A stretch of 64,000 nucleotides of DNA from Candidatus Annandia adelgestsuga (GTDB lineage Bacteria; Pseudomonadota; Gammaproteobacteria; Enterobacterales; Enterobacteriaceae_A), in NCBI RefSeq assembly GCF_003956045.1, contig NZ_CP026513.1:244363-308362 (forward strand), given 5' to 3'. Made by a program: the position numbers and the translations under genes. The stretch's first letter is position 1. The number at the start of each line of letters is the position of its first letter. Shown here in pieces: positions 3,012 to 57,194 of this stretch. The notes under the pieces were generated by a model that did no database searches, was not told where the DNA came from, and saw nothing but the letters and a program-made list of their open reading frames with translations.

Positions 3012-4387
3012 ATGTTACCTATAATTACTATTATTGGAAGACCAAATGTTGGTAAATCTACTTTATTTAATATTATAACTAATTCTAAAAAAGCTATTTT
3101 TTATAATATTCCAAATGTTACAAGAGATATAAATTATGAAATAGTAAAATATAAAAATTTTGAATTTATTATAGCAGATACTGCAGGCTTTAAAAAAAAA
3201 AAAAAAATAAAGAATTTTTAATATTAAAACAAATTTTAAATTTTATAAAAAAATCTAATATTGTATTATTTTTAGTAGATGCTTTAACTGGAATATTATA
3301 TGATGATTATGAAATTACGAAATATTTAAGATATATATATAAAAAAAAAATTTTTTTAATTGTTAATAAAGTTGATAATGAAAATTTAAAAAATTGTTCT
3401 TATGAATTTTATAAATTAGGATTTAAAAATATATCTTTTTTATCTACAGCACATCATTATGGTATAAAAAAATTTTTAGATATTAAATTAATTCCATATA
3501 TTAAAAATATAAAAAAAAAAAATAATTTAAATAAAAATTATGAATTTAAATTTTATTATAATAATATAAAAAAAAATAATATAAAAATTGCTATTATTGG
3601 ATCTCCTAATGTTGGAAAATCTACATTAATAAATTTTTTATATAAATCTAAAAGAATTATTGTTGATAATAAACCTGGTACTACAAGAGATAGTATATAT
3701 GTACCTATTAAATATAATAATAAATTATATACTTTTATTGATACAGCAGGTATTAAAAAAAAAAATAATATTGATAGTATTATAGAAAAATTTTCTATTA
3801 TTAGATCTTTTAAAGAAATAAAAATTTCAAAAATTATAATATTAATTATTGATGTAAAAATAAATATTTCTCAAAAAGATTTATCTTTAATATATAATAT
3901 AATAAAAAGTGGTAAAGCTATTATTATAGCATTTAATAAATCTGATAAAATTTCTAAATATCAAAAAATAAATATAAAAAATAACATAATTAATAAATTT
4001 AAATTTATTAATTTTATACCTATTTGTTTTATTTCTGCATTATATGGAAAAGGTATAAAATATTTATTTTTTTTAATACAAAAAGTACTTAATTTAAATA
4101 ATAAAAAAAAAATAAATACTTCATTATTAAATAAAATATTAAATGAATCTACTAGTAAACATCCACCTTCTATATATAAAAAATATAGAACAAAATTAAA
4201 ATATGCTCATATTGGTACTTATGATCCTTTTACTATAATTATTCATGGTAATCATATAAATGGTATTAATAATATTTATAAAAAATATTTAATTAATTTT
4301 TTTCGTATTAAATTAAATATAATTGGTATACCTATAAAAATAATATTTAAAGAAAGTAATAATCCATATATTAAAAATGATATTTAA
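3012..4387 (+). CDS. der: Ribosome-assembly GTPase Der (EngA), frameshifted at a 16-base A run
   Basis: Der is the tandem-GTPase factor needed for 50S subunit assembly. The first G domain starts with GRPNVGKSTLF and reaches the G3 motif ADTAGF. A run of 16 A (3192-3207) then breaks the frame, and the original frame stops at 3219-3221. In the other frame the protein continues without a stop from about 3203 to TAA 4385-4387. It shows IVLFLVDA, NKVD, the second P-loop GSPNVGKST, KPGTTRDS, DTAGI, NKSD and the C-terminal KH-like domain. Seventeen A (or fourteen) would restore the frame, and seventeen restores the E. coli spacing. The downstream part has no in-frame ATG, GTG or TTG that I found. 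It therefore cannot easily be a separate gene, and slippage rescue is the economical explanation. Confidence 0.88.
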
Positions 4388-55979: not shown

Positions 55980-56753
55980 TTATTTTTTTTTATTAATAAT
56001 ATTTTTTTTTTTTATTTTTTTTATTTTTTTTTCTTTTATAATATTTTGACGCATTATAAAGTTAAAAAATTCAACTAAAGAAGCAAAACCAACAGCACTA
56101 TATAAATAAGTTTTAGAAACGTAAATATTTAGTCCATCTAACATTATAAAAAAACCAGTTAATAGTAAAAAACTTAAGAATAAAACAGTGATTGTAGGAT
56201 TATTTTCTAAAAATTTGATTAAATTTCTAGAAATAAAAAATATTAAAAACATTACTATAAAAATAGATAGTGATATTAACCAAATATTATTCATAATTCC
56301 AATTGCAGCGATAATTGCATCAATAGAAAATAAAGAATCTATTGCAACAATTTGAAACACTGCTTTTAAAAAAAATAATTTATTAAATTTTTTTTTATTA
56401 TTATCATTTTTTTTTTTGTTAATAAATTCATATATTTCTATAGAAGTTTTAATTATTAAAAAAATTCCTCCTATAAATAAAATTAAATCCTTTATAGAAA
56501 AACTTAAATTAAATATATTTAATATTTTTTTTTTAAATTTAGATATCCAATTAATCAGACATAATAATAGTATTTTAGCTATAAAAGCTAATGATATACC
56601 AATTTTACTTGCTTTTTCACGCTGTTCATTAGGAAGTTTTTTAATAATAATAGATACTAATATTAAATTATCAACACTTAAAACTACTTCTAAAATTATA
56701 AGAGTAAATAAACCTATAAATAAATTATATGCTTCCAATATTAAAAACTCCAT
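55980..56753 (-). CDS. yoaE: TerC-family integral membrane protein
   Basis: A 257-residue TerC-type protein with about seven transmembrane helices. The paired acidic motifs of the family are visible (ILEVVLSVDNLILVSI and IVAIDSLFSIDAIIAAIG). By position between tsaB and cspC it corresponds to the membrane half of E. coli YoaE (518 residues), with the C-terminal CBS/CorC-like half absent. The proteins are implicated in metal-ion handling, notably manganese export in some relatives. YgdQ is an alternative assignment. About 190 A/T-rich bases with no visible gene separate it from tsaB. Confidence 0.88.
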   Translation of the reverse strand: MEFLILEAYNLFIGLFTLIILEVVLSVDNLILVSIIIKKLPNEQREKASKIGISLAFIAKILLLCLINWISKFKKKILNIFNLSFSIKDLILFIGGIFLIIKTSIEIYEFINKKKNDNNKKKFNKLFFLKAVFQIVAIDSLFSIDAIIAAIGIMNNIWLISLSIFIVMFLIFFISRNLIKFLENNPTITVLFLSFLLLTGFFIMLDGLNIYVSKTYLYSAVGFASLVEFFNFIMRQNIIKEKKIKKIKKKNIINKKK

Positions 56754-56871
56754 TTATTAAATAATTTTTATAAAATTATTCAATATAAGTTAATAAATAA
56801 TTATGATAATATTTATTTATAATAATATTAAATATTATTTTTTTTTTTAAAAAAAATGTAAATAATAAAAT

Positions 56872-56971
56872 AGTCAAGACTCCGACATATACAATCATTA
56901 ATATTACATACATTATGAGTATTTTCGGGTCTAGACTTTATAATCCCAAAACATAAACTAAAGATGTTTAT
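56872..56971 (-). ncRNA. Candidate structured RNA element downstream of cspC
   Basis: The bases after the cspC stop are unusually GC-rich for an intergenic stretch here (about 25-28 %, against roughly 10-15 % elsewhere). On the minus strand they form first a 6-bp hairpin (ATAAAC / GTTTAT, 56953-56971). A long imperfect hairpin follows, whose base pairs AGTCTAGACCCGA (56937-56925) with TCGGAGTCTTGACT (56885-56872); an ATAC/GTAT inner stem extends it. An AT-rich tail ending in eight T follows. It could be the cspC terminator/3'UTR or an independent small RNA. I do not recognise a known family: tmRNA, RNase P RNA, 4.5S and 6S motifs were not found. Confidence 0.4.
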
Positions 56972-56984
56972 CCATTACTCTATT

Positions 56985-57194
56985 TTATAAAGAGACAACA
57001 TTTATAGCTGCTGGACCCTTTTGACCATCTTGAATTTCAAATTCAACATTTTGGCCTTCAGACAATGTTTTAAAACCATTACCTTGAATAGCAGAAAAAT
57101 GTACAAAAACGTCTTTGCTGCCATCAGATGGAGTAATAAAACCAAAACCTTTAGATTCATTGAACCACTTTACTTGACCTTTAATCTTTGTCAT
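56985..57194 (-). CDS. cspC: Cold-shock protein CspC
   Basis: A 69-residue OB-fold RNA chaperone nearly identical to E. coli Csp[41 protein letters not shown] and [18 protein letters not shown] differ at only a few residues. Both RNA-binding motifs (KGFGFI, VFVHF) are intact. Its GC content (about one third) is far above the rest of the window, reflecting extreme protein conservation and probably high expression. AAGGAAA lies upstream of the ATG. Its 5' flank (57195-57458) is A/T-rich with one small inverted repeat (57261-57278). Confidence 0.97.

Follow-up and report, generated by a model that had tools for sequence, protein, structure and literature searches.

Genomic setting of the element downstream of cspC

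The gene cspC of "Candidatus Annandia adelgestsuga" is followed, from the base right after its stop codon, by a structured element, which raises the question of whether this DNA serves the cspC message as a terminator or a stabilizing 3' untranslated region (UTR), encodes a separate small RNA, or belongs to the gene farther downstream. The genome is a single contig of 334,746 bp with 17.8% G+C; for the chromosomes of adelgid symbionts, the lower end of the range is 0.34 Mb and 17.8% G+C (PMC8857208). The features found within the analyzed window, a 64,000-nt stretch of this contig, are listed in Table 1. One sister genome from the same genus (G001, 348,580 bp) was available for comparison.

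The next gene downstream of cspC belongs to the yoaE/terC family. In Escherichia coli, rlmA, mntP, yobD, and manZYX are located between cspC and yoaE; all six are missing here, so the adjacency of cspC and yoaE/terC arose by deletion. The yoaE/terC product here consists of the TerC membrane part alone (257 amino acids, compared to 518 in E. coli), and the respective open frame in the sister genome has about 390 to 415 codons. Elsewhere in the window (positions 3018 to 4351), the gene for the EngA/Der GTPase is broken in two: the frame shifts at a long poly-A tract near positions 3192 to 3208, which places residues 1 to 63 and 63 to 432 in different frames; the sister genome has a single open frame. 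This frameshift could reflect transcriptional slippage, recent decay, or an assembly error.

Table 1. Features of the cspC 3' flank and the adjacent genes (positions in the window)
Feature	Positions	Strand	Evidence
yoaE/terC family gene, next downstream	55980..56753	(-)	tblastn with E. coli YoaE, 39% over 236 aa
U-rich tail, AUUUUAUUAUUUACAUUUUUUUU...	56840..56871	(-)	Sequence, tail counts, terminator scan
Conserved 66-nt hairpin, proposed terminator-derived 3'-end stem-loop of cspC	56872..56937	(-)	z -4.42; 67-nt sister counterpart
Hairpin 3' arm, UCGGAGUCUUGACU	56872..56885	(-)	Fold
Hairpin 5' arm, AGUCUAGACCCGA	56925..56937	(-)	Fold
3' UTR spacer, 47 nt, cspC stop to hairpin	56938..56984	(-)	Folds, local alignment
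cspC	56985..57194	(-)	ORF, 69 aa; tblastn with E. coli CspC, 89.9% identity over 69 aa

Base composition and structure

The first-pass annotation had described positions 56872 to 56984 as a segment with about a quarter G+C and complementary arms in nearly pure A/T surroundings. This description holds on both counts. The G+C content of these 113 nt is 28.3% (31.8% in the hairpin part), as against 9.1% for all intergenic DNA of the genome. Among 5,040 other intergenic windows of 113 nt, selected with the exclusion of rRNA, SRP RNA, and stretches of unrecognized or broken genes, the median was 2.7% and the maximum 12.4%. The fold includes 9 G-C pairs, the most of any intergenic region in the genome, followed by the SRP RNA region. 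Other "intergenic" stretches of high G+C were traced to unrecognized or broken genes and to the SRP RNA.

The arms, at exactly the coordinates originally assigned to them, form the basal stem of a hairpin, in which three blocks of 4 bp are separated by a U-U mismatch and a bulged A. The structured unit is the segment from 56872 to 56937, with a folding energy of -18.9 kcal/mol that was not reached by any of 200 shuffled sequences (z -4.42). Folding with flanks gave a z of -3.38 (1 of 200 shuffles), and folding of the whole 113 nt gave -2.19 (8 of 200); the latter is less exceptional because the spacer contributes just a weak 6-bp hairpin. Also in the spacer is UUUUGGGA, with UUUGGGA as its counterpart in the sister genome.

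The RNA that follows the stem has 6 U residues among its first 8 nt, and an 8-U run begins 16 nt past the stem, so that there is no canonical U-tract; in the sister genome, the tract is even weaker (3 to 4 U per 8 nt), in both cases against a background of about 91% A+T. A strict terminator scan of the cspC 3' flank was negative. Where an intrinsic terminator combines a short loop with a stem of 6 bp or more that is rich in G+C, this hairpin has a mismatch, a bulge, and a structured loop of ~40 nt. A promoter scan returned 8 sites, compared to 6.4 expected, and a search for tRNA and tmRNA found none at the site.

Conservation in the sister genome

Contrary to the lack of conservation that would have spoken against the first-pass annotation, the hairpin is retained in the sister genome as a 67-nt structure (G001:160063-160129) with a z of -7.21. 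It starts 57 nt past the cspC stop codon, compared to 47 nt here, and is separated from the yoaE/terC ORF by 121 nt, compared to 118 nt here. The similarity of the two 3' flanks exceeded that in all 100 shuffles (z 4.4), and their alignment retains both arms (AGUCUA.AC ... AGU.U.GACU) and the AUUU that follows. Nine basal pairs are in register, with 8 of them formed here and all 9 in the sister genome: seven are invariant, one shows a two-sided change from G-C to A-U, and the U-U mismatch seen here is replaced by a U-A pair. Shifting the 3' arm by a single column lowers the pairing from 94% to 28 to 50%. Of the compensatory changes that the first-pass annotation would count as support in the 56872-56885/56925-56937 stem, there is one two-sided change, which is suggestive but no proof: it is a single pair in two genomes, was equaled in 241 of 500 shuffles, and could not reach significance with two sequences.

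The upper stem and the loop have been rewritten between the two species, with the basal stem and the spacing unchanged. Because the sister hairpin has a G+C content of only 13%, it is the structure, rather than G+C, that is conserved between the two Annandia genomes. The element after cspC is a real and conserved hairpin that probably has a function. When a covariance model built from the two Annandia hairpins was run over 296 genomes of the order, it recovered only these same two, whose E-values carry no meaning, as they are the sequences behind the model. Given that this model found no further member, the hairpin sequence is private to the genus, although its position is general. Searches for additional copies in either Annandia genome returned just short A/T-rich chance matches.

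Terminators of csp genes in related bacteria

A canonical intrinsic terminator is found at the corresponding place in 75 of 79 related csp genes. The automatic hairpin picker often took outer structures, and a stricter counter was used for these terminator counts. Among the loci whose CspC is at least 88% identical, 28 of 30 carry a compact intrinsic terminator, at a median of 44 nt past the stop codon (45 nt in E. coli cspC); at the other csp loci, the canonical terminator is present in 47 of 49, at a median of 20 nt. Four genomes of the same family have AAAGCCCG...CGGGCUUU 12 to 16 nt past the stop. Two further loci fell short of the strict thresholds, one in the Ctenarytaina secondary symbiont (L058) and one in Xenorhabdus (L072), the terminator of the latter being visible by eye. 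In Annandia, Westeberhardia, and Wigglesworthia, long-loop hairpins replace the compact terminator. The gene that comes after the hairpin is rlmA in E. coli, a convergent rpmG-like gene in the four same-family genomes, and yoaE/terC in Annandia; since the downstream gene differs among genomes, the hairpin belongs to cspC. A contig labeled Streptomyces pinistramenti (L033, NZ_JAJCXB010000031.1) also encodes a CspC of the enterobacterial type, 88% identical to that of Annandia, as a result of either contamination or transfer.

Similarly to the intrinsic terminators of enterobacterial cspC and cspE, the Annandia hairpin lies 15 to 65 nt past the stop codon of the same gene, is the G+C-richest local hairpin, and is followed by RNA with many U residues, albeit in a background of about 91% A+T. 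Unlike those compact structures with loops of up to 10 nt, it spans 66 nt with a long structured loop, has a mismatch and a bulge in the stem and an interrupted U-tract, and its stem sequence cannot be aligned with theirs; base-level homology is not demonstrable. The csp 3' hairpins of Wigglesworthia and Westeberhardia (L098 and L063), also long-loop structures from small A+T-rich symbiont genomes, differ in having 13-bp stems with at most one mismatch, and Westeberhardia keeps a seven-U tract. A trend toward distant and less stable symbiont terminators is already known from Buchnera, whose predicted terminators are farther from the stop codon and less stable than those of E. coli (PMC3091783).

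RNA decay and termination machinery

Searches with E. coli queries in tblastn identified PNPase (49 to 51% identity), DeaD, and RNase III in both Annandia genomes, and a profile search identified Rho in both. The same tblastn searches found no RNase E, RNase II, Hfq, ProQ, or NusA in either genome, and profile searches of both confirmed that NusA and RNase E/G are missing. The matches to RNase R were confined to a short stretch inside pnp. The sole match to poly(A) polymerase (pcnB), with 27 to 28% identity over about 220 aa, is what would be expected from the tRNA nucleotidyltransferase (Cca), and the polymerase itself is probably missing from both genomes. PNPase is the only large 3' exonuclease detected; neither RNase II nor the hairpin-tolerant RNase R was found. 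In the sister genome, rho (G001:262339-263826) is represented by two matched stretches within one 527-aa open frame, with an apparent insertion between them.

PNPase is blocked by hairpins at 3' ends, except where polyadenylation offers it a grip (PMC7509114). In Salmonella, the cspE 3' UTR is a stability-control site and a substrate of control by PAP I, ProQ, and RNase II (PMC12086684). Where these factors are missing from the cell, such a hairpin would be expected to hold back PNPase for long.

Proposed function and alternatives

The cspC transcript most likely ends in this hairpin, a remodeled terminator that would also act as a barrier to PNPase. Under extreme A+T bias, the enterobacterial cspC terminator would have become longer and its U-tract weaker. 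On reaching this hairpin and its U-rich tail, the polymerase that transcribes cspC would be partially released, or Rho would stop it farther on. By either route, the hairpin would become the structured 3' end of the mRNA and block its 3'-to-5' decay by PNPase, and the cspC RNA, abundant, would be kept apart from, and more stable than, that of yoaE/terC. The descent from a terminator, the termination efficiency, the blocking of PNPase, and any effect on RNA level are all inferred. The initial suggestion of a terminator or stabilizing 3' UTR thus survives as the best-supported reading, albeit with negative strict terminator scans and a weak U-tract. As with the 3' stem-loops known to block exonucleases (REP/PU elements and terminator hairpins), a stable, conserved hairpin lies soon after the stop codon of a gene that is likely highly expressed, and the genome encodes the hairpin-sensitive 3' exonuclease PNPase. 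In contrast to REP/PU elements, it is a single copy that belongs to no repeat family, and its protective role is putative.

The length, stability, and exceptional composition of the hairpin would also suit a small RNA, separate or processed from the cspC 3' UTR and acting in trans, and 3' UTR-derived small RNAs are common in free-living enterobacteria. Such an RNA is nevertheless unlikely here. Neither of the chaperones Hfq and ProQ was found in either genome, which makes an RNA dependent on them an unlikely candidate; the 296 genomes of the order hold no other copy; and a rewritten upper stem and loop on a kept basal stem with constant spacing is not the pattern expected of a trans-pairing seed. 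A comparison with Rfam, proposed in the first-pass annotation along with the unnamed small RNA, yielded no family for the 3' flank on its coding strand, either at the gathering score or at E-values up to 10, and a full-text literature search found no paper that combines Annandia with a small RNA. The cspA thermoregulator (RF01766) matched the cspC coding region and its 5' side and not the 3' element, with 49.6 bits against a cut-off of 78. A role as a 5' leader (riboswitch or attenuator) of yoaE/terC is somewhat less likely still. The yybP-ykoY manganese riboswitch is found with TerC-family genes elsewhere and with E. coli mntP, which in the ancestor lay between cspC and yoaE, judging from the E. 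coli gene order, and the distance from the hairpin to terC is conserved. However, yybP-ykoY (RF00080) gave no match on either strand at E-values up to 10, nor did any other riboswitch match even at an E-value of 10; relatives have a hairpin after cspC with no yoaE downstream; and no mutually exclusive pairing is shared by the two genomes, the GGG/CCC alternative seen here being absent in the sister genome.

A slightly lower probability attaches to an RNase III processing site, at which cleavage of the duplex would separate the two messages of a cspC-terC cotranscript. The RNase III gene is retained, the U-tract is weak, and the sister stem is a long near-perfect duplex; but the stem here, interrupted into short helical blocks by the mismatch and the bulge, would be a poor substrate, and its position fits a terminator. 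It is very improbable that the element is what remains of one of the deleted genes (rlmA, mntP, or manXYZ), or an overlooked small gene, and has yet to drift to A+T. The loss of six genes from this very place and the higher G+C would fit such an origin. Still, RlmA and MntP, the two lost-neighbor proteins compared, showed no similarity to it, the two intergenic regions share no convincing conserved reading frame, and a gene remnant would not retain, in the two species alike, a hairpin at matching distances.

Conserved hairpins after other Annandia genes

Among 82 orthologous 3' intergenic regions, which include a few rRNA-region or broken-gene calls, about ten have a strong folding z in both species. 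They follow dnaK, rplL, groEL, ackA, tktA, fldA, gnd, frr, and the gene after cspC (names read off the protein sequences). Several of the genes with such hairpins (dnaK, groEL, rplL, tktA, and others) are, like cspC, expected to be highly expressed. With a strong combined z, the cspC region takes the tenth place; its 150-nt flank in this genome alone has a z of just -1.18, because the signal sits in the 66-nt hairpin. Most of the other conserved 3' hairpins likewise have no canonical U-tract, and the cspC hairpin is distinguished by its G-C pairs. A terminator-like hairpin (3 or more G-C pairs, 5 of 7 U) no farther than 80 nt past the stop was found at only two protein genes per genome.

A tentative and rather doubtful extension is that the long 3' hairpins of abundant messages (cspC, dnaK, groEL, rplL, and others) serve mainly as PNPase barriers and not as terminators; if true, a minimal, structure-only system would set mRNA levels without regulators after the loss of NusA and most decay enzymes. 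Even in a genome of 335 kb whose intergenic G+C is about 9%, a 3'-end structure after the gene of an RNA chaperone appears to be maintained by selection as its sequence drifts. Combined with the enzyme inventory, this suggests a way in which such cells could adjust the amounts of their mRNAs relative to one another with no need for regulators.

Conserved, long A/T-rich hairpins were seen directly after the dnaK-, rplL-, and groEL-like genes in both genomes (in this genome, G000, at 129181-129297, 174003-174092, and 109021-109170).
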